Origin: Candidatus Chloroheliales bacterium
GTDB lineage: Bacteria; Chloroflexota; Chloroflexia; QHBQ01
Direction of reading: 5' to 3'
Assembly: GCA_003243865.1 (NCBI GenBank)
Contig: QHBQ01000495.1
Location: forward strand, 1 to 8,536
Length of the DNA: 8,536 nt
Under the pieces are notes generated by a model that was given only the letters and a program-made list of their open reading frames with translations, did no database searches and was not told where the DNA came from. The number at the start of each line of letters is the position of its first letter. Within the stretch, counting starts at the first letter, position 1. Below, piece after piece: positions 1 through 8,536 of this stretch. The translations under genes were made by a program, and so were the position numbers.

Positions 1-1
1 C

Positions 2-925
2 AGCCACCCTGATGGCTGGATGGGGGCGGACGGCGCATACTCGGTGCCGCTGCCTGATGGCCGCAGTGTTTGGATCTTCGGTGACACCATCCTGGGCAAA
101 GCGCAGACCGATGGCTCGCTGAAGCCCAGTGCTTTCATCAACAATTCGCTGATTTTGCAGGATGGTGACAAGCTGACGGCAATTCACGGTGGTAGCAACG
201 CGAAGCCGAGCGCAGTAATTACCCCGACCGACAGTGACACCTGGTATTGGCCGATCAACGGGATAGTGGAGAGTGACAAGCTGCGCGTTTTCCTCTTGCA
301 TCTGAAGCGGGCGGGTAATGGCACCCCAGGGTTCGACTTCACCGGCATCGGCCACGCCATTGCCACCCTCTCGCTGCCTGACCTGAAGGTGGAAGGGGTG
401 GCGCCGCTGCCGTTTGATAGCAAGGTGGATTACGGCTCCTCGTTTGTCGAGGATGGTGGCTATACTTACATCTATGGCCTGGAGGATTTGCAGAGCGCGA
501 AGTACGGCCATGTGGCGCGGGTGGCGCGGGGGCAGATAACTAGTGGCAAGTGGCAGTTCTACACTGGCGCGGGCTGGTCGAGCAATCCAGTATCCGCCAC
601 GCGCATCATCAGCGATGTTTCTAACCTGAGCGTGTTCAAGCGGGGCAGCGGCTACGTGCTGGTGGGCATGGAGAGCGGCTTCGGCTTCGGCAAGAACATC
701 CTCGCCTACTACTCGTGCAGCCCAGTCGGCCCCTGGGTCAACCGCGCCGTGCTGTACACCGTGCCGGAGGCCAATGGCAGCATCGTCACCTACCTGGCGA
801 ACGCCCATCCTGAGTTCAGTAAGGGTGCGCCGCTGCTCATCTCCTACTGCCTGAACAACACCAAACCTCAAGCTGGAGCCAACAACATTTACAGGCCGCA
901 CTTCATCCGCGTCAGCCTACCCTAG
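2..925 (+). CDS. Secreted-type beta-propeller protein, DUF5005/DUF4185-like, 5' end missing
   Basis: The reading frame is open to the left edge (residues SHPDGW precede the first visible Met at 20), so the gene is 5'-truncated and that Met is probably internal. The opening GADGAYSVPLPDG followed by WIFGDT is typical of predicted glycosidase-like five-bladed propeller families annotated DUF5005 or DUF4185. Later blade-like stretches fit: VEDGGYTYIYG (about 145-155), KRGSGYVLVGME (about 207-218), and NAHPEF followed by LLISYC near the C-terminus. The protein ends in YRPHFIRVSLP. Proteins of this kind are usually exported, and a signal peptide would lie in the missing part. No catalytic activity is established for these families, and I assign none. 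The family call rests on recalled motif similarity; the propeller fold is more certain than the exact DUF number. The stop codon at 923-925 is followed after 5 bp by a heptanucleotide tract. Confidence 0.62.
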   Translation, partial: SHPDGWMGADGAYSVPLPDGRSVWIFGDTILGKAQTDGSLKPSAFINNSLILQDGDKLTAIHGGSNAKPSAVITPTDSDTWYWPINGIVESDKLRVFLLHLKRAGNGTPGFDFTGIGHAIATLSLPDLKVEGVAPLPFDSKVDYGSSFVEDGGYTYIYGLEDLQSAKYGHVARVARGQITSGKWQFYTGAGWSSNPVSATRIISDVSNLSVFKRGSGYVLVGMESGFGFGKNILAYYSCSPVGPWVNRAVLYTVPEANGSIVTYLANAHPEFSKGAPLLISYCLNNTKPQAGANNIYRPHFIRVSLP

Positions 926-930
926 CAATT

Positions 931-958
931 GCAGATTGTAGATTGCAGATTGTAGATT
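931..958 (+). repeat. Heptanucleotide tandem tract, four GYAGATT units
   Basis: Four heptads alternate GCAGATT and GTAGATT, which equals two perfect copies of a 14-bp unit. The tract starts 5 bp after the stop codon at 923-925, and a degenerate partial unit (GCAATT) overlaps that stop. It resembles the short tandemly repeated repetitive heptamers known between genes of some bacteria, such as heterocystous cyanobacteria. Two other heptad tracts with different unit sequences lie in this window, also at stop codons. No function can be assigned. Confidence 0.85.
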
Positions 959-968
959 AACAACGTCC

Positions 969-993
969 GTAGGGGCGCATCGTCGTGCGCCCT
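969..993. repeat. Palindromic intergenic repeat, copy 1 (GTAGGGGCGCAT type)
   Basis: An imperfect inverted repeat pairs AGGGGCGCA (971-979) with TGCGCCCT (986-993), with one bulged G and a 6-nt loop. The 12-mer GTAGGGGCGCAT at 969-980 recurs exactly at 3127-3138, in another intergenic palindrome. The hairpin lies about 45 bp past the end of the first gene and could help terminate its transcript. T1000-T1004 follows shortly after the stem but is not directly adjacent. Recurrence at non-coding positions points to a REP-like or MITE-like interspersed element. Confidence 0.6.
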
Positions 994-1002
994 GCCGACT
1001 TT

Positions 1003-1031
1003 TTGCGGGTCGGCCTCAGTTCTGCTATACT
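1003..1031 (+). promoter_or_regulatory. Sigma-70-type promoter of the SRPBCC gene
   Basis: TTGCGG (1003-1008) is separated by exactly 17 bp from TATACT (1026-1031). The -10 box is preceded by TG (1023-1024), so it is an extended -10 element. The expected start site, near 1038, would give a very short leader that begins at or in the ribosome binding site. An inverted repeat GCCGAC (994-999) / GTCGGC (1009-1014) flanks the -35 box and could be an operator or a chance stem. Confidence 0.7.
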
Positions 1032-1050
1032 GGCGGCAAGGAGGGCGGAA

Positions 1051-1503
1051 ATGGGCGTCAAGGTCAGCAAGAGCATCAAGGTCAACGCGCCAGTGGAGCA
1101 GGCGTTCGCTTACATCGCCGATTGGCGCAACGCGACCAAGGTGCAGACCAACTTCAGCAGCTTCAAGCCTGTTGATGCTGACGCGCTCGGGCCGGGGGTG
1201 GTGGTCGCGGTCAAGGGCCGCTTCCACGGGCTGCCGATTAAGGTGCGAATGAAGATCACCGAGTTCGAGCCGCCCCGCCGCATGGTCGGGCTGGTGAGCG
1301 GGATGCTGAAGAGCGTCAACGCCTGGCTGTTCGAGCCGCTGGAGGATGGGCGCACCAAAGTCACGTTCGTCAACGAGTACCACATTCCCGCCCCTCTGAT
1401 GATGCTGCTGGGCCGGAACAGCTTCATTGACCGCGAGGTAACGCAGATGACCGAAGACGCGCTGCGGCGGTTGAAGCGGCTGCTTGAGAACGGCAGCGAT
1501 TAG
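1051..1503 (+). CDS. SRPBCC / polyketide-cyclase-like small-molecule-binding protein
   Basis: This 150-residue protein has the length and pattern of the START/Bet v1-like SRPBCC superfamily. It begins with strand KSIKVNAPVEQAFAYIADW (helix-grip opening, about residues 7-25). A run of strands follows, including MKITEFEPPRRMVGLVSG (67-84) and AWLFEPLEDGRTKVTFVNEY (91-110). It closes with a long C-terminal helix (about 125-146). Members bind hydrophobic ligands in a central cavity and work as cyclases, dehydratases or carriers; the ligand here cannot be predicted. It is soluble, without a signal peptide or membrane segment. I place the start at 1051 because AAGGAGGG (1038-1045) sits at ideal distance and the promoter -10 box ends at 1031. 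An upstream in-frame GTG at 985 would lie before the promoter and inside a palindrome. The gene appears monocistronic, bounded by its own promoter and by a terminator hairpin 24 bp past the stop. Confidence 0.82.
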   Translation: MGVKVSKSIKVNAPVEQAFAYIADWRNATKVQTNFSSFKPVDADALGPGVVVAVKGRFHGLPIKVRMKITEFEPPRRMVGLVSGMLKSVNAWLFEPLEDGRTKVTFVNEYHIPAPLMMLLGRNSFIDREVTQMTEDALRRLKRLLENGSD

Positions 1504-1506
1504 GGA

Positions 1507-1520
1507 AGTGATTAGTGAGA
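1507..1520 (+). repeat. Short degenerate heptad pair (AGTGATT, AGTGAGA)
   Basis: Two heptads sharing AGTGA start 4 bp after the stop codon at 1501-1503. Alone this is weak and could be chance. It is listed because it has the same period and the same position next to a stop codon as the two stronger tracts at 931-958 and 7376-7410. Confidence 0.35.
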
Positions 1521-1527
1521 CCGAAAA

Positions 1528-1553
1528 GGCGCACTGGAAGCTTGCAGTGCGCC
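1528..1553. terminator. Bidirectional hairpin terminator between convergent genes
   Basis: A perfect 9-bp stem pairs GGCGCACTG (1528-1536) with CAGTGCGCC (1545-1553) around an 8-nt loop. Read on the - strand, the stem is followed directly by TTTTCGG, a good intrinsic terminator for the gene whose stop is at 1578. Read on the + strand it is followed by CTCTATTTA, a weaker tail, serving the gene ending at 1503. The stem shares its GGCGCA/TGCGCC core with the interspersed palindromes at 971-993 and 3130-3151. Confidence 0.72.
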
Positions 1554-1577
1554 CTCTATTTACAGGTGCAGAGGAGT

Positions 1578-2942
1578 TTACTTAGACTTGTCGTACAGCC
1601 CGGTTTCCACTACGTAAGAGATAGCCCCGGCACAGGTGCTGTCTACATTTATCTGCGTCGCGCCCCTCACTCCTTTATTGACTAGCTCCATCCGTATTAC
1701 GCTGGGTATAACGTCGATGAAGGAGACAAAAGGCTCGGCGGCGATGGCCAGTAGCTCTTTGGTATCGGCCCGTGCCCGCACCAGGTACACTCCTTTGTTG
1801 ATCAGGGTAGGGTAATTCTGAGCGTTGTAGTTGTTGATCGTATTCATCCGATCGGCAGGCAGGGGGTCGGTGGTGCCATCGGGGCTGTGTACCGGCATAT
1901 CCTTGTAAACGTTGCCGTCAACTCCGCGCAAGTGAGTATCCGTTACCTTTAGGCCATGAGCTTTGACCCAGGCACGGAAGCTGTCCACACTCTGATAGTG
2001 GCTGAAAACCACCAAGACTTCTGCTTGACCACCGTTCTTAACCACGCGCGCCAGCAGTTGCTTGTTTGAAGTAATATACCCGTCAATTCCTGTTTGGGTG
2101 TTGGCTTTGCACGCCACGTTAGCAGTGACATCACCGGGCTTTACATCTACGCCGTTGGAGTTACCGCCGCCGCCCGGCCCCACTATGTAGGCAGTATACT
2201 GCCATGCGCCAAAGTCACCAGCGCCTACCTGGTTATTAGGGACGCCTTCAGGGGTAACTTGGGCAATCGGCACTTTGTTAGGGCCTGTAGTCGGCGGTGC
2301 GGGGATAGGTTGCTGTGCTGTGGATACAGGTGATGGTAGTGCTGACGGGCGGCTAGCAGATGGCATACTTGGTAGAGTAGGGTCGTTGAGTACCTTAGCG
2401 AAACCCTCTCCATTTGGAGAGGTAAACCACATTGATGGTACTCCAGCCCAGAGGTCAAACACAAGACCAACATAAAGCGTCCCGTTGTTCTTACTCTGAA
2501 AACGTGGGTTGAGATCAGAGGTACCCTTTAGAACTACCACCATAAGTGGCGGGGTCTCAATAGAGGCGAAGTGTTGGGTACCCCAGCCAAAACCTGCCAC
2601 TTCGTCCAATGTAGTTGATTTACTGAGCAGTACCTGCATCGTAAAGTTAGGCCATCGTCGGCTACTCCAGTTAATGGCAACCTGGCCAACTTCCTCGGGA
2701 GAGGAGTTAGTGAGTGGCTTAGGCTTAAACCTGTCTGCGAAGGGATCGAAGGTTGGCACAGCTTCCATAGTTGATACCGGGGTGGGCAGGGCTATGCCGT
2801 AGCTGCTAGCGCTGTAAGCACTGTTTGTAGTAGCGCGGCTATTCTGGGTGAGATTATCATAGGCAGCAAGAAAAAGGGCGAGAGTCAGCGCTGCAGCCAG
2901 GATCAGCATCCTGCTCCTCAACATTCGTAGTTTAGCTTTCAT
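1578..2942 (-). CDS. Secreted protein of unknown function with central Pro-rich linker
   Basis: I do not recognise a family for this 454-residue protein. A basic N-terminus (KAKLRMLRSR) leads into a hydrophobic run at about 12-27, a signal peptide or anchor with no lipobox Cys. Two probable domains follow: an N-terminal one at about 80-185 (includes INWSSRRWPNF and LYVGLVFDLWAGVPSMWF) and a C-terminal one at about 240-454. A Pro/Ser-rich linker (about 191-235) joins them. The C-terminal domain holds the only two cysteines, C278 and C437, which could form a disulfide outside the cell. GAGGGG (2949-2954) lies 6 nt before the ATG and supports the start. The gene has its own promoter (3058-3086) and a terminator (1528-1553), so it is probably a separate unit. 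GC content is visibly lower than in its neighbours, suggesting transfer or a lineage-specific gene. Confidence 0.8.
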   Translation of the reverse strand: MKAKLRMLRSRMLILAAALTLALFLAAYDNLTQNSRATTNSAYSASSYGIALPTPVSTMEAVPTFDPFADRFKPKPLTNSSPEEVGQVAINWSSRRWPNFTMQVLLSKSTTLDEVAGFGWGTQHFASIETPPLMVVVLKGTSDLNPRFQSKNNGTLYVGLVFDLWAGVPSMWFTSPNGEGFAKVLNDPTLPSMPSASRPSALPSPVSTAQQPIPAPPTTGPNKVPIAQVTPEGVPNNQVGAGDFGAWQYTAYIVGPGGGGNSNGVDVKPGDVTANVACKANTQTGIDGYITSNKQLLARVVKNGGQAEVLVVFSHYQSVDSFRAWVKAHGLKVTDTHLRGVDGNVYKDMPVHSPDGTTDPLPADRMNTINNYNAQNYPTLINKGVYLVRARADTKELLAIAAEPFVSFIDVIPSVIRMELVNKGVRGATQINVDSTCAGAISYVVETGLYDKSK

Positions 2943-2948
2943 TCTATT

Positions 2949-2954
2949 CCCCTC
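2949..2954 (-). promoter_or_regulatory. Ribosome binding site GAGGGG
   Basis: Read on the - strand, GAGGGG is followed by 6 nt and then the ATG at 2942-2940. This fixes the start of the secreted protein at its first Met, in front of the basic residues of the signal peptide. Confidence 0.7.
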
Positions 2955-3057
2955 ATTTCTGAGCCTTTAACTACCAGTTTATCGTCCAGTCGTATCCACT
3001 GTTGCAGCCGCCAATGGTGGCTGCGGCGGTATTGTAGGCTGAAACCCCTGTAAGTTG

Positions 3058-3086
3058 GTTATAACACCGCTGGCGAAATAATGCAA
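3058..3086 (-). promoter_or_regulatory. Extended -10 promoter of the secreted-protein gene
   Basis: On the - strand, TTGCAT (3086-3081) and TATAAC (3063-3058) are separated by 17 bp. TG two bases before the -10 box makes it an extended -10 element. The expected start site near 3051 gives a leader of about 108 nt. The leader contains an imperfect inverted repeat at 3004-3024 (GCAGCC on one arm, GGCTGC on the other). Nothing recognisable as a riboswitch is seen. Confidence 0.65.
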
Positions 3087-3126
3087 GGGGTTTTCCAGGC
3101 AATTTTGTTTTGGCTGAACGAAAACG

Positions 3127-3158
3127 GTAGGGGCGCATTAAGCTGCGCCCCATCGTTC
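3127..3158. repeat. Palindromic intergenic repeat, copy 2; possible terminator
   Basis: GGGGCGCA (3130-3137) pairs perfectly with TGCGCCCC (3144-3151) around a 6-nt loop. An outer GAACGA (3116-3121) / TCGTTC (3153-3158) can extend it after an internal loop. It starts 10 bp after the DUF3160 stop codon in the - direction, so it could end that transcript, but the tail (CTACCGTTTTCG) is a poor U-run. Its left arm shares the 12-mer GTAGGGGCGCAT with copy 1 at 969-980. Confidence 0.6.
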
Positions 3159-3167
3159 GTGTACCCT

Positions 3168-5621
3168 CTACTTCTGTATCGCGTAGCTCTTAGTCCAGTC
3201 GGCGAAGGCGGGGGCCTTGCCTGCATCGAGTTGCGCCTTCCAGGCCTCGTCGGTGAGGCGACCGCTGCTGGGAACGACGAACTCGTAGTGGCTGAAGACT
3301 GCGCCGCGCGACAGCACCTTCTTGCCGTCAATCGGCACCACCGCGTAGATTTCGTAGGGACGGCCAGTCGTCTCCTGCAAGGCGTTGCCGTTGGGGTCGC
3401 TGGCGATGTCGGCGGCGAGCGCGGCGTCGAACTGCCCGGCGTCGGTCAGGCGGCCCTGGCACTGATCGGGCGGGGTGTTGGGGTCGCACTGCGGGTCGGC
3501 AGTCGAGATGGTGATGCCCTCGATGGTGCCGCCGTAGTACATGATGAAGGTGTACTCATCGTCGGTCAGCGGCTGGTTCTGTAGCTCCTTCAGGCTGATG
3601 GTCAGCATCTGGCTAACCGCGTCCTTGACGTTGGTGAGCCGCTGCTCGATGGGTTGGTCGAGCAAGTTGCGCGACTTGAGGCCATCTATGGTAAGCTGGG
3701 TGAGGGCGCTGAGGCGGGCGTAGAGTTCGGGCTGCGGTTCGACGTAGCCCTTGACGATGGTGGGCGGGCCACCGCCTAGCTCGGCCATGCTCTGCTTGGC
3801 GTAGAGGATGGTGTCGTGCTTCAGTTCGGTGTAGCTACCCAGGTAGGTGGTAAGCTGCTTGTCCTGCCACGCCTGGTTGGTCATGAAGCTGGGGTAGCCG
3901 CTGGGTTTGGGCGTAACTAGCGAGTTGATGGTGTAGAGCCAACTCCAATAGAGGTTCTGGGTCCAGTCGTTGACGTTGAGGGCGCTGATGTTCTGGCGCA
4001 CCTTCTGCATCTGGGTGTCGTAGTGCAGCGCCGCCGGACCCTGGCCCTGACCGTAATCGAGCTGCGTCCCCTGGGCAATGATGTTGAGCGCCTCATCCGA
4101 ACCCATCGCTGCTGGCACATCGAGGGCGCGCGGCAGCCAACGAACTACATCAGGGTTGCCGTCCGGCTTGGCGGTGCCAACGTTGCGCCAGGTTAGCTGG
4201 CCGATAACGTACTCATCGAGGGTGAAGCGCTGGCCCATCATCCGTAGCCCCTTGGTCACTTTGGTCTTGTCCTGGGTGGCGTAGACGAACATCGAGTTGA
4301 TGAGGGGCGAGGGCATCTTGTCAATCGCGCCCTGGAAGGTGGTCAGTTTGGCGGGGTCAGCGAGGTCTTGCAGCGCGGGCGTGTCGCTGCCGTAGACCGC
4401 TTTGATCGCGGGCTGATAGTCGAAGTAGCTGAGGTCGTCCGCCTTGCCCACAATGAACACGGTCGGCTCGTAGATGTTGCGCCAGTGGTCGAGGATCGGG
4501 CCGGAGCGCAGCGTCTGCTGAGTGCCGAGCAGTTCACTGAGCAGGATGGCGGAGAGCGTCTCGCTGGCATCTTGCTGACGGAAGGTCATCCGCCCGTACC
4601 AGATCATCGCGCGGAAGTAATGCTGCAACGCCTCGCTGCGGGTGTAGTGGCCGCGGGGATTGTACTGGCCGTAGTCCTCCATATATTTGGCGAAGATGTT
4701 GGAAGGGGCGATACCGGCGTGATTGTTGATTAGGCCAACCTCGGCATTTACCTTCTGGCTGACGTAAGCGGGGGTCTGAGAGTTGGGATTGATCAGCTTA
4801 TCGGCTACCGCGAAGTAGGCAACCAACCGCTCCGAGGCGGCGGTGAGGTCGGGATTGTTCAGCTTGACGACATCGCTGTGCTGGGCATCGGAAACGCGCA
4901 GCATCGCATCGTTGAGGATAGTCAGTTCGCCAGTCAGTTTGTTGCTCTCCAGGTCGCGCAACATCTTGTCGAAGACTAGGTGGTAGACGTGCAGGATGCT
5001 GTCGCTGGTGACGAACACCGGCTCATCACCGTAGCGACCCGCCTCGTAGACCTGGTAGAACTCCTTCAGGCCGCTGGGATAGCGCTGGCTGTCACCGCTG
5101 GCCAGCGGGCTGACCACAAACAGGTTCTTCGCCAGCAGCGCCTGGGCTGCATTGCTAAGGCTGTACTGGGCGGGGTTGGCTACATCGCTGAGGTCGGGCT
5201 TGACCGTGTAAGGGGCGACACTGGCCTTGACGCTGACATTGGGAACGTTGAATTTGGCAAAGGAGAGCAAGGGGCGGTTGACCGTCGGCGCGGAGTTGTC
5301 AATCGTCGCGGTGGGGGTGACCGGCATCGCCTCGGTCGGGGTGATTGCCATTGCCTCGGTTGGTGAGGCAGCGGCCTGCTCGCTGGTCGGCGAAGGCTGC
5401 TCCAACGCCGCAGTCGGAGAGGCGGCCATCATCGCAGTGGTCGGAGTTGCGGCCAGCGCCAGGGTGGTCGGGCTGGCTGCTGCCGCCGCGCTGGTCGCAG
5501 TCGCGGCAGGCGCGGTCGGGGTGGCCTTGCTGGGGTTGAGGTCGCAGGCAGCCAGTAGCATCTGGATGGTCAGCACCATCGCCAGCAGGCTAGCGAGGCG
5601 GCTGAGGCGTTTGTGAGACAT
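3168..5621 (-). CDS. DUF3160 family lipoprotein
   Basis: This 817-residue protein starts with a lipoprotein signal peptide ending in LLAAC, which puts the lipid-modified cysteine at residue 26. A long Ala/Ser/Pro/Thr linker (about 31-115) rich in SPT and TPT motifs follows, likely holding the globular part away from the membrane. The rest (about 120-810) fits DUF3160: PVFVTSDSILHVYHLVFDKM (about 201-220) near its start and GAVFSHYEFVVP followed by RLTDEAW near its end are family hallmarks as I know them. The family's function is unknown and none is assigned. C-X8-C within PQCDPNTPPDQC may form a disulfide. AGGAGG (5628-5633) lies 6 nt before the ATG and supports the start. This ribosome binding site touches the last base of the capA-like stop codon, and the 11-bp gap indicates a shared transcript. 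Confidence 0.85.
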   Translation of the reverse strand: MSHKRLSRLASLLAMVLTIQMLLAACDLNPSKATPTAPAATATSAAAAASPTTLALAATPTTAMMAASPTAALEQPSPTSEQAAASPTEAMAITPTEAMPVTPTATIDNSAPTVNRPLLSFAKFNVPNVSVKASVAPYTVKPDLSDVANPAQYSLSNAAQALLAKNLFVVSPLASGDSQRYPSGLKEFYQVYEAGRYGDEPVFVTSDSILHVYHLVFDKMLRDLESNKLTGELTILNDAMLRVSDAQHSDVVKLNNPDLTAASERLVAYFAVADKLINPNSQTPAYVSQKVNAEVGLINNHAGIAPSNIFAKYMEDYGQYNPRGHYTRSEALQHYFRAMIWYGRMTFRQQDASETLSAILLSELLGTQQTLRSGPILDHWRNIYEPTVFIVGKADDLSYFDYQPAIKAVYGSDTPALQDLADPAKLTTFQGAIDKMPSPLINSMFVYATQDKTKVTKGLRMMGQRFTLDEYVIGQLTWRNVGTAKPDGNPDVVRWLPRALDVPAAMGSDEALNIIAQGTQLDYGQGQGPAALHYDTQMQKVRQNISALNVNDWTQNLYWSWLYTINSLVTPKPSGYPSFMTNQAWQDKQLTTYLGSYTELKHDTILYAKQSMAELGGGPPTIVKGYVEPQPELYARLSALTQLTIDGLKSRNLLDQPIEQRLTNVKDAVSQMLTISLKELQNQPLTDDEYTFIMYYGGTIEGITISTADPQCDPNTPPDQCQGRLTDAGQFDAALAADIASDPNGNALQETTGRPYEIYAVVPIDGKKVLSRGAVFSHYEFVVPSSGRLTDEAWKAQLDAGKAPAFADWTKSYAIQK
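5277..5531 (-). repeat. Low-complexity linker coding region with 24-bp tandem repeat
   Basis: This stretch encodes residues 31-115 of the DUF3160 lipoprotein, almost entirely Ala, Ser, Pro and Thr. At 5319-5366 two adjacent 8-residue units, SPTEAMAI and TPTEAMPV, are encoded by near-identical 24-bp repeats. Such linkers are common between the lipid anchor and the exported domain, and they often vary in length between strains. Confidence 0.75.
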
Positions 5622-5627
5622 TTCTTT

Positions 5628-5633
5628 CCTCCT
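5628..5633 (-). promoter_or_regulatory. Ribosome binding site overlapping the upstream stop codon
   Basis: AGGAGG, a perfect Shine-Dalgarno core on the - strand, lies 6 nt before the DUF3160 start. Its first base is the last base of the TAA stop (5635-5633) of the CapA-like gene. Ribosomes terminating on the first gene would be positioned on the second, consistent with translational coupling. Confidence 0.75.
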
Positions 5634-7333
5634 TATAACTTGTACAAAAATCGGTGTCCTGCATCATCGGCGAATAGGTGGGTGTAGCCGCGCCCCACCG
5701 ATTGCCAGTCCATTACGAAGCCGAAGCCGGGCGCGGACCAGATCGTCATCGTTGCCTGCGTCGGGTCGTCGCCCCATAGCACACCCAGACGGGTGCTGCC
5801 ATCGCTAGCCTCCACCACGCTGATGTTCTGCGCGGTGGTCGGCAGCGGCCGCCCGCACCAGAGTTGCCCCCACTGCCGCTTGAGCATCAGCCAGCCGTAG
5901 ACGCAAAGCTGGTTCTTGAGCTGGCCCTGCCCGCCCCAGCGATAGTCGGGCTGCCAGAAGTTAAAGATAACCGCTGGCAACCCGCCGTAGTGGCGGATGA
6001 TGGCGACCTGACGCACCTGCATCTGCGGTTCGCTGGCAAAGCCCGGCTGCCAGTTGGCGGCGGCAACCGCCTGCCCGTCAACCGTCGTTGCCGCCATTGC
6101 GGTGTTGTCGTGCCACCACTCGAACGGCCCAGCGCGGCTCTGCTCGGCGACGTTCAGGCTACCAATCGGGTTGGCGGCGTTGTCCGCACTGCGATAGCTG
6201 ACCCACTCGTCACGGCCATCGCCATTTAGGTCGGCGGACACGCCAGTGGGCTGCTGCTCGCGTCTGTAGGCCAGCGCCAGGGTAGCGGCTGGTGCAGGCG
6301 CAGACTCCGGCGCGACCCCGAAGCTGCGTGGTGGCAGCGGGCTGACCGCCTGCCACAGTAGCGCGGCATCGCTGCTGCTGGCGGCGTTGGCAATGGCCGC
6401 AAGCGCGTGAGGGTCGCTATCGGCCAACATCCTCGTCTGCAAGAACGTACTGAGCGGGCGAAAGGTTGCGCTGGCAACCCCGCTGCGGTCGAGGGTGACA
6501 TCGAGCAGCGCCCCAGTCTGCGCGGCGATGGGGGTACGCTGGTCGAAGATGAAGTTGCCGAGGCTGTAGGCCACCAGTGCGTTGCCCACCCGCGCCAGCC
6601 CTTGCGTGACATGGGGGTGGCAGCCGACGATTATGGTAGCACCCGCAGCGGCGATGCTCTGGGCGAGGTTGCGCTGGAAGTCGCTGGGCGCGGCGTCATA
6701 CTCGAGGCCCCAGTGCATAAAGACAATAACCGCATCGGCCTGCGCCCGCGCCTGCCCAATCTCCGCCTTCAGCGCCGCTTTGGTTGCTTCCAGCTGTGGC
6801 CCGCTGCATATGATCGCCGCCAGCGGCGTGCCAGCTGGCAGCTGGCTGGTGGCTACGCAGTCGTAGCCGAGGAAGGCGAGACGCAGTCCCTTGATTGTGA
6901 CGAAGGCGGGCTGGTCGCTGGTGCCGATATGGCGCAGGCCCGCCGCATGGAGCGCGGCAACCGTGTCACTCAAGCCCGCGCTGCCATAGTCGAGCGCATG
7001 ATTGTTGGCAACGGTGATGATGTCGAAACCCGCACGGGCGATCGCTTTGGCGGCGGCGGGTCGCCCTTTCAGGTTGATCCATTGCCCGTCGGGACGCACC
7101 GGTGTGGGCTGGTCGGTCAACGGCGACTCCAGGTTGGCAACCGCTAGATCCGCACCGCTTATGGTGTCGCTGATCGCGGCGAAGGGGTAATCGTCGCCAT
7201 ACTGCTGCATCATCGCATCAACTGAGCGGCCCAGCATGATGTCGCCGCCGAACACCACCCGCACCGGCGGCCCATACTGCGCGAAGTAGGCGGCGATTTC
7301 GCGCTGCGCAATCGAGGGTAGCGGCGCAATCAT
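5633..7333 (-). CDS. CapA-family metallophosphatase (PGA_cap) with C-terminal extension
   Basis: Residues about 25-265 match the CapA / poly-gamma-glutamate synthesis family (PGA_cap), a calcineurin-like phosphoesterase fold. The metal-site motifs appear in order: GGDIMLGR (29-36), NLESPL (67-72), NNHALDYG (110-117), MHWGLEY (206-212), GCHPHV (237-242), and the closing YSLGNFIFDQ (256-265). The domain therefore looks intact. An unusual C-terminal region of about 230 residues follows. It carries a Ca-binding-like DLNGDGRDE loop (368-376) and a Trp-rich part, and I do not recognise it. From this first in-frame ATG the protein lacks a signal peptide and has no ribosome binding site. The in-frame codons upstream (7381-7334) encode KLITAVIFILAVGLPALM, an excellent export signal that no standard start codon reaches in frame. 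A heptad repeat lies at that junction, so the true or alternate start may depend on its copy number. Family members act in capsule polymer or cell-envelope metabolism; the substrate here is unknown. Confidence 0.83.
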   Translation of the reverse strand: MIAPLPSIAQREIAAYFAQYGPPVRVVFGGDIMLGRSVDAMMQQYGDDYPFAAISDTISGADLAVANLESPLTDQPTPVRPDGQWINLKGRPAAAKAIARAGFDIITVANNHALDYGSAGLSDTVAALHAAGLRHIGTSDQPAFVTIKGLRLAFLGYDCVATSQLPAGTPLAAIICSGPQLEATKAALKAEIGQARAQADAVIVFMHWGLEYDAAPSDFQRNLAQSIAAAGATIIVGCHPHVTQGLARVGNALVAYSLGNFIFDQRTPIAAQTGALLDVTLDRSGVASATFRPLSTFLQTRMLADSDPHALAAIANAASSSDAALLWQAVSPLPPRSFGVAPESAPAPAATLALAYRREQQPTGVSADLNGDGRDEWVSYRSADNAANPIGSLNVAEQSRAGPFEWWHDNTAMAATTVDGQAVAAANWQPGFASEPQMQVRQVAIIRHYGGLPAVIFNFWQPDYRWGGQGQLKNQLCVYGWLMLKRQWGQLWCGRPLPTTAQNISVVEASDGSTRLGVLWGDDPTQATMTIWSAPGFGFVMDWQSVGRGYTHLFADDAGHRFLYKL

Positions 7334-7396
7334 CAGCGCGGGCAGCCCGACCGCAAGGATGAAGATTACCGCAGTTATGAGTTTTGAGTTTTGAGT
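7334..7396 (-). other. Untranslated in-frame signal-peptide segment upstream of the capA-like gene
   Basis: In the frame of the CapA-like gene, an in-frame TGA (7399-7397) is followed by codons reading TQNSKLITAVIFILAV and then GLPAL up to the ATG at 7333. This is a lysine followed by a hydrophobic core of about 12-17 residues, the form of a Sec signal peptide or anchor. There is no ATG, GTG or TTG in this stretch. The nearest upstream starts, ATG 7404-7402 and GTG 7400-7398, are in the two other frames. The first part of the stretch is heptad repeat. Confidence 0.7.
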
Positions 7397-7410
7397 TCAC
7401 TCATGACTCA
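7376..7410 (-). repeat. Heptanucleotide tract at the transporter/capA junction
   Basis: Read on the - strand, five consecutive heptads are TGAGTCA, TGAGTGA, ACTCAAA, ACTCAAA and ACTCATA. The transporter stop codon TGA (7403-7401) lies inside the tract and overlaps an ATG (7404-7402) in the coupling arrangement ATGA. Because 7 is not a multiple of 3, gain or loss of a unit changes which start codon is in frame with the CapA-like gene. As shown, ATG 7404 yields only a nine-residue peptide (MSELKTQNS), and GTG 7400 runs out of frame to 7218. Confidence 0.8.
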
Positions 7411-8363
7411 CGGCTCTCGCGGCGGGCCAGCAGCACCAGCGCGGCGATGACCAGCACGCCGCCGAGCGCCTGCCAGATGTCAATCGCCTGGGCCAGAAAG
7501 ATGAAGCCGAAGCCGCTGGCACAGACCAACTCGAAGGTTGAGGCGATGCTGGCCGCGCCGGTTTCGATGCGGGCCAGGCCGCTGACGTAGAAGCCCGCCG
7601 CTGCCAGGGTGTTGAACAGCCCGGCGGTAAGCAGCAGCAGCCACGCCTGCCAGTGCGGCCCGGCGGCAAACACGCTGCCCAAGCCGCCGCTGCTGAGGAC
7701 GATGAGAGTAAGCAGACCGACCGCGCCGAGCGCCTGGGCGTAGAACACCACCGTGAGCGGGGCGAGGCCATTGCGCAGCCCCTGATTGGCGAAAATGGTG
7801 TAGAGCGCGTACAGCACACCGCTGCCCAGGCCGAGAACCAGGCCCAGCCAGTTGAAGTTGAGTTGTCCGGCGGCATAGACCTGAGCGACCAGCGCGCAGC
7901 CGACGAAGGTGAGCAGCAACGCGCCCAGCTTGTTCGCAGTGAGCGGCTCGCCCCAGAAACGCCAGGCGAACAGGGTAACGAACGCGGGCGCAGTGTACAT
8001 CAGCACCGCGGCGACTGCAACGGTGTTGGTGATGGTACTCTGACCGTAGACGCTGTAGAACACGGTGATGCCGAGCAGCGCGTAGCCAAGCAGCAGCGGC
8101 AGCTGGCGGCGGGGCAGCATCAGCAACGCGCGCTTGCGCAGGCCGAGGTAGACTAGTAGCCCCAGCGCGGCGAAGAAGGCGCGATAGAAGACGGTCACGC
8201 CGACCGGCACGCCGTATTGGCGGTTCAGCGTGTTGTAGATGATGCCGAGCGAACCCCACAGAGCAGCAGCCAGCAGCACGAAGATATAGCCGACAATGCG
8301 GCTATCTATCCCCCGCAGCCGCGCCGCGCCTGCCTTCATCACCCCCGGCCCGGTGCTTGCCAT
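7401..8363 (-). CDS. EamA/DMT family transporter
   Basis: This is a 320-residue inner-membrane protein with about ten hydrophobic helices, organised as two EamA repeats (about 22-160 and 172-312), the usual size for the drug/metabolite transporter superfamily. Family features include ALWGSLGI in the first helix, YTAPAFVTL (123-131) with FWGEPLT after it in repeat one, and STFELV (275-280) followed by WQALGGVLVIAALVLL in repeat two. Members move amino acids, purines, sugars or drugs; the substrate cannot be read here. I prefer ATG 8363 because GAGGGAG (8369-8375) lies 5 nt before it. An in-frame GTG at 8387 would add 8 residues without a good ribosome site. The gene is the first of the - strand cluster, about 36 nt behind the predicted transcription start. 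Its stop codon overlaps an ATG in the arrangement ATGA, suggesting coupling to the CapA-like gene. Confidence 0.87.
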   Translation of the reverse strand: MASTGPGVMKAGAARLRGIDSRIVGYIFVLLAAALWGSLGIIYNTLNRQYGVPVGVTVFYRAFFAALGLLVYLGLRKRALLMLPRRQLPLLLGYALLGITVFYSVYGQSTITNTVAVAAVLMYTAPAFVTLFAWRFWGEPLTANKLGALLLTFVGCALVAQVYAAGQLNFNWLGLVLGLGSGVLYALYTIFANQGLRNGLAPLTVVFYAQALGAVGLLTLIVLSSGGLGSVFAAGPHWQAWLLLLTAGLFNTLAAAGFYVSGLARIETGAASIASTFELVCASGFGFIFLAQAIDIWQALGGVLVIAALVLLARRESRES

Positions 8364-8405
8364 GCCCGCTCCCTCTGCGGTAATCACGCCTGAACTACGC
8401 GCTAT

Positions 8406-8435
8406 ATGCTACAGGAAATATCGGTTGGGTGTCAA
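8406..8435 (-). promoter_or_regulatory. Promoter of the transporter-capA-DUF3160 operon
   Basis: On the - strand a consensus -35 box TTGACA (8435-8430) is followed after 18 bp by TAGCAT (8411-8406), which matches four of six -10 positions. The expected start near 8399 gives a leader of about 36 nt before ATG 8363. It is the only convincing promoter seen upstream of the three tightly packed genes. Confidence 0.65.
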
Positions 8436-8459
8436 GCTCAATGCTACTCCCGCAGAAGG

Positions 8460-8489
8460 TTGTCAGCGGCGCGGCATAGATGCTATAAT
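8460..8489 (+). promoter_or_regulatory. Strong divergent promoter facing out of the window
   Basis: TTGTCA (8460-8465) is separated by 18 bp from a consensus TATAAT (8484-8489). The TG at 8481-8482 makes it an extended -10 box, nearly identical to the one at 1023-1031. It must drive a gene or RNA starting after the right edge; only about 40 bp of its transcript is visible and no start codon is identifiable there. It stands back to back with the operon promoter at 8406-8435. Confidence 0.7.
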
Positions 8490-8536
8490 GAGGTGAGGTA
8501 CTTCCCCTCTCCCAGCGGGCTAATCCTTACCCACAA

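Follow-up and report, generated by a model that had tools for sequence, protein, structure and literature searches.

A heptanucleotide repeat at the 5' end of a CapA-like phosphatase gene: a candidate start-less allele within a dispersed repeat family of a Chloroflexota lineage

The DNA analyzed here (the window) is a complete stretch of 8,536 nt from Candidatus Chloroheliales bacterium (contig QHBQ01000495.1, positions 1 to 8,536). A gene coding for an EamA-type transporter is followed on the reverse strand by an intact gene for a CapA-like phosphatase and by a DUF3160 gene (Table 1). The CapA-like product belongs to the CapA/PGA_cap family, with a PF09587 match of 227.9 bits over a gathering cut-off of 27. 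A scan with NCBIfam gave matches only far below cut-off. The heptads that the original prediction described across the transporter stop and the 5' end of the phosphatase gene are real. Besides being read directly, they were recovered by Tandem Repeats Finder (7373-7397, period 7, 3.6 copies, score 43), and the array segment matches itself at period 7 in 20 of 28 positions, compared to a maximum of 19 when the complete window was simulated 500 times under a first-order Markov model. The accompanying caution that just two units are perfect and adjacent is borne out by the direct reading and the repeat finder alike. The last residues of the transporter, RESRES, are encoded by the heptad region and are missing from P0122 and P0123.

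Table 1. Features of the window discussed in the text.
Feature	Position	Strand	Basis
EamA-type transporter, upstream of the CapA-like gene	8387-7401	-	Pfam E 3.1e-29
TGAGTCATGA, degenerate heptads that include the transporter stop and, overlapping it, the out-of-frame ATG	7401-7410	-	direct read
ATG overlapping the transporter stop, out of the phosphatase frame	7404-7402	-	direct read
Transporter stop TGA	7403-7401	-	direct read
GTG, out of the phosphatase frame, abutting the heptad array on its upstream side	7400-7398	-	direct read
Heptad array: AACTCAA twice, then AACTCAT, then AACTGCG	7373-7400	-	direct read, Tandem Repeats Finder, Markov simulation
Start-less in-frame extension TQNSKLITAVIFILAVGLPAL with signal-like hydrophobic segment	7334-7396	-	frame reading, hydropathy
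CapA-like ORF, 566 aa, intact	7333-5633	-	PF09587 PGA_cap over residues 26-265
DUF3160 gene, following the CapA-like gene	5621-3168	-	
Second heptad array, ATTGCAG/ATTGTAG	928-958		Tandem Repeats Finder; period-7 self-match 21

The phosphatase frame is closed upstream by an in-frame TGA (7399-7397) and then reads TQNSKLITAVIFILAVGLPALM down to the ATG at 7333, with no ATG, GTG or TTG between the two. The sequenced copy is thus off-frame, as had been claimed, in that no canonical start is in frame with the signal-like segment. The ATG at 7404 and the GTG at 7400 both lie out of frame with it, and the arithmetic by which the gain or loss of heptads would bring one or the other into frame is correct by counting. 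The hydrophobic segment has a mean hydropathy of 2.62 over 17 residues, and the four close orthologues described below range from 2.15 to 2.80. From the ATG at 7333 the value is 0.73. The absence of a ribosome site, which had been held against this start, carries little weight because the in-frame ATG of the orthologous locus L001 has no clear one either (by eye). ATA and ATC codons are present in the phosphatase frame of the start-less stretch. A programmed frameshift from the ATG at 7404 or the GTG at 7400 into the phosphatase frame was rejected, no classical slippery heptamer being seen by eye.

The protein search (7994 candidates scored, 961 proteins retained) gave four close orthologues among the 120 listed, P0002-P0005, which are 59-73% identical to the window protein, and a profile search built on six sequences (538 proteins) added no further close orthologue among the 120 listed. 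All four are predicted to have longer N-termini (MNSKLKTQNSKL, MTNSKLKTQNSKL, MHSNLKSQISKL and MNNSNLKPQTSNL), and in each the next stretch is a hydrophobic segment alignable with that of the window. The common pattern is M(x)NSKLKTQNSKL or a variant of it, and three AACTCAA units encode NSKLKTQ. At L001 the DNA reads ATG ACC (AACTCAA)4 AACTT, in frame, and for the three others the heptads are deduced from the protein sequence. These N-termini, together with the in-frame DNA of L001, indicate that the close relatives read the heptads as coding sequence, which supplies the front end of the signal peptide. In P0006, which is more distantly related, the N-terminus is also signal-like, but these NSKL-type residues are absent from it. 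A literature search for NSKLKTQ, KTQNSKL, KLKTQNS and SKLKTQNSK found no occurrence.

Counted from the first perfect unit as far as the hydrophobic segment, the sequence is 33 nt long in L001 (four units and AACTT) and 19 nt in the window (two units and AACTC), so that the window array is 14 nt shorter and the frame is shifted. L001 also has 69 nt between the transporter stop and the ATG, and in the window the array lies directly on the stop, without spacer and without ATG. Gain or loss of heptads by itself would therefore not convert one arrangement into the other. L001 is the sole orthologue with readable DNA, and the ancestral arrangement is taken from it. The CapA gene body is intact and under purifying constraint: across 562 aligned codons (two parts summed) it departs from L001 at 103 first, 74 second and 208 third positions. 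The 15 codons right after the array show 4, 2 and 6 differences in the same order (seven codons identical, four silently changed and four replaced), a pattern that agrees with recent coding use over a stretch too short for proof.

The heptads are not specific to capA. The genome that carries L001 (G001, 5.2 Mb) contains 262 overlapping double heptads, a number for which the reversed-pattern control is uninformative because AACTCAAAACTCAA is identical read backwards. Among the 18 genomes reached through the loci of the homologue scan, exact double heptads were found in G001 only, with none in the 17 others. The repeat is therefore a dispersed family with many sites in one genome. A pattern requiring a non-A base before the first unit, which selects some arrays and not every one, gave 78 matches in G001 and nine when reversed, the latter reflecting array ends and not chance. 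Sixty-five further G001 stretches chosen with this pattern, together with L001, L084 and L097, made up a sample of 68 loci and 84 arrays of 14-40 nt, in which coding frames were called by a simple codon score trained on the same 68 loci. A same-strand coding frame lies downstream of 54 of the 84 arrays.

Of these 54, 26 lie in long open frames, defined by a run of at least 80 open codons ahead of the array and in register with it. Arrays inside ORFs are read as linkers of about 11 codons, NSKLKTQNSKL and shifted versions (L148, L097, L121, L112, L123 and others). Ten array-bearing long ORFs were covered by the Pfam scan: in L148 the array is flanked by the two anthranilate synthase-type domains, in L121 it falls between aldolase and dehydrogenase domains and in L097 within the PolyA_pol head domain, and no Pfam family matched L161. 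In L136 an ATG directly follows the array, so that this ORF may consist of two neighboring genes joined by an open frame. Other peptide motifs, GEQRFAPT, DKSRPY and GAQFIAP, recur beside arrays in the same ORFs (e.g., L146, L119, L113 and L132), which suggests further repeat families read in frame.

Another 28 arrays lie at gene 5' ends and were classed by hand as 13 in-frame N-termini (L115 being doubtful), 13 leaders, i.e., with the start codon after the array, and two without canonical start. An in-frame start before the array is also present in five of the 13 leaders. Judged by eye, a hydrophobic segment follows about eight of the 13 in-frame N-terminal arrays. The two without canonical start, L129 and L171, are ABC-ATPase-like and epimerase-like ORFs (by eye) with the array at their start. 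Of the remaining 30 arrays, nine were unclassed and 21 (e.g., in L117, L135, L156, L157 and L172) lie beside a gene on the opposite strand, the 3' end of which was in all 21 cases inside the array or at most about 22 nt away. Gene ends of this kind are to be expected, because the reverse orientation of the array carries stops in all frames, and the neighbor often takes its stop from the array. Taken together, we read the array as a tolerated and partly domesticated dispersed repeat that became the n-region of the CapA signal peptide in the close relatives.

Other repeats were found as well. The second array of the window sits just after a stop codon (923-925), and double units of its type have 278 matches in G001 (reversed control, none), making it a second abundant family. 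The double ATGACTCA-type unit had no match in G001 with up to one mismatch (reversed control, four). The sequence GTAGGGGCGCA (969-979 and 3127-3151) occurs in the window twice exactly and three times at one mismatch, compared to 0.31 expected, and its second copy has 8-nt inverted arms; it is possibly another dispersed element.

The reading that best accommodates the junction, and one that we hold with a little more than even confidence, is a start-less allele produced by repeat-mediated shortening, either a deletion or the loss of units. On this reading the junction carries a dispersed, lineage-specific repeat, (AACTCAA)n, in shortened form. Close relatives translate some four units of it, immediately downstream of the start codon, as NSKLKTQNSKL, the lysine-bearing n-region of the phosphatase signal peptide (at DNA level for L001 and from protein sequence for the three others), and in the window a shorter array on the transporter stop leads into a still recognizable hydrophobic segment with no canonical start in frame. 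The likely cause would be a deletion between heptads or unit loss, recent relative to the divergence from L001, and the likely outcome that exported CapA is not produced by the window genotype, or that its product is limited to a leaderless form initiated at the ATG at 7333. Such an allele would probably be fixed or slowly reverting, with no dedicated fast switch. L129 and L171, which likewise begin with an array and have no canonical start, count for this reading. So do the N-termini of the orthologues and the in-frame DNA of L001, the TGA-closed window frame with its lack of a canonical start, the intact and constrained gene body, the missing 69-nt spacer, the single protein sequence on three contigs and the dispersal of the repeat in G001. 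Against it counts the hydrophobic segment, which shows no visible decay although decay would be expected in a long-dead 5' end, and which would therefore fit a gene that is sometimes on.

A neuO-like form of the switch that was originally proposed would toggle CapA export through slipped-strand changes in heptad number within the 5' coding sequence, with the sequenced copy in its off state. The unit length of seven and the position just after the start region fit a switch, as do the coding use of the array in the orthologues and a signal segment that has been preserved. In addition, a different heptad family of G001 forms long mosaic arrays, which shows that heptad arrays do expand in that genome. 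There is also the precedent of neuO itself, in which the heptanucleotide array lies two nucleotides past the start codon and the gene is on only at multiples of three units (PMC3046976). However, the junction has just two perfect units, the predicted proteins of all four close orthologues keep the frame, and the window has neither the spacer nor the ATG of L001. The 566-aa form is found as one member sequence on three contigs, which may not be independent, so that the longer form is absent from that cluster. Among the hand-classed N-terminal arrays of G001, 13 of 15 are in frame, a proportion that overstates frame keeping because frame-lost arrays with a later ATG were counted as leaders. Slipped-strand switching is on these grounds unsupported so far, the function of the repeat as an on/off switch is unproven, and we consider it unlikely.

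Somewhat less probable is that the signal-bearing form is made from a non-canonical start such as the in-frame ATA or ATC, or that the true product is the leaderless form begun at the ATG at 7333; the possibility of such initiation also counts against the start-less reading. In its favor, the gene body is intact, and L129 and L171 could mean that unusual starts are in use. But starts of the ATA/ATC type are rare, and initiation without the leader would leave a conserved hydrophobic segment unused when the longer form is present in all four close orthologues. Finally, an assembly or base-calling error hiding a sequence that is really in frame is improbable, for although tandem repeats are prone to error, this array is short enough to be spanned by ordinary reads, the identical 566-aa protein is found on three (perhaps not independent) contigs and a collapsed repeat would leave the spacer in place.

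If arrays of this kind have been domesticated as N-terminal and linker peptides, the lineage would be a natural record of a tandem repeat becoming protein sequence, and of genes being made or broken as array length changes. Should unit number prove variable within populations, the arrays would together be contingency loci, and this in the Chloroflexi, a phylum for which our limited literature search on phase variation and slipped-strand mechanisms found nothing relevant. That dozens of dispersed arrays, many of them at N-termini of exported proteins, act throughout the genome as neuO-like contingency loci, with unit number controlling export and the capA gene of the window in an off frame, seems to us rather improbable.

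Heptad repeats are also known from cyanobacteria, as the STRR heptads. The Chloroflexota genome of Chloroflexus aurantiacus has scattered heptamer satellites, (GATAGRA)n, with a different unit and, in an excerpt of the published account, no coding role (PMC6749651). The Rickettsia palindromic elements (reviewed in PMC10969869) are similar in being dispersed repeats read in frame within unrelated genes, but they are palindromes of about 150 bp, and an identity with the tandem heptads of 14-40 nt described here was rejected. The TAACTGA direct repeats of marine Beggiatoaceae (PMC4679880) are dispersed heptamer arrays that are mostly intergenic; many are near start codons, some overlap the stop of the upstream gene and some are inside ORFs. 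Here, in contrast, long open frames contain 26 of the 84 arrays examined, and arrays read in forward orientation are free of stops. A close parallel to the junction is the poly-psi array of neuO in the E. coli K1 prophage CUS-3, where switching has been documented (PMC3046976). Both are heptanucleotide arrays at a 5' coding end with the number of units setting the frame (L001 in frame, the window out of frame), and in both three units give a seven-residue repeat, RLKTQDS in neuO and NSKLKTQ here. Unlike neuO, reported with 2-93 copies, the junction has two perfect adjacent units and a single sequence on three contigs, and its array is a member of a dispersed family and forms the n-region of a signal peptide.
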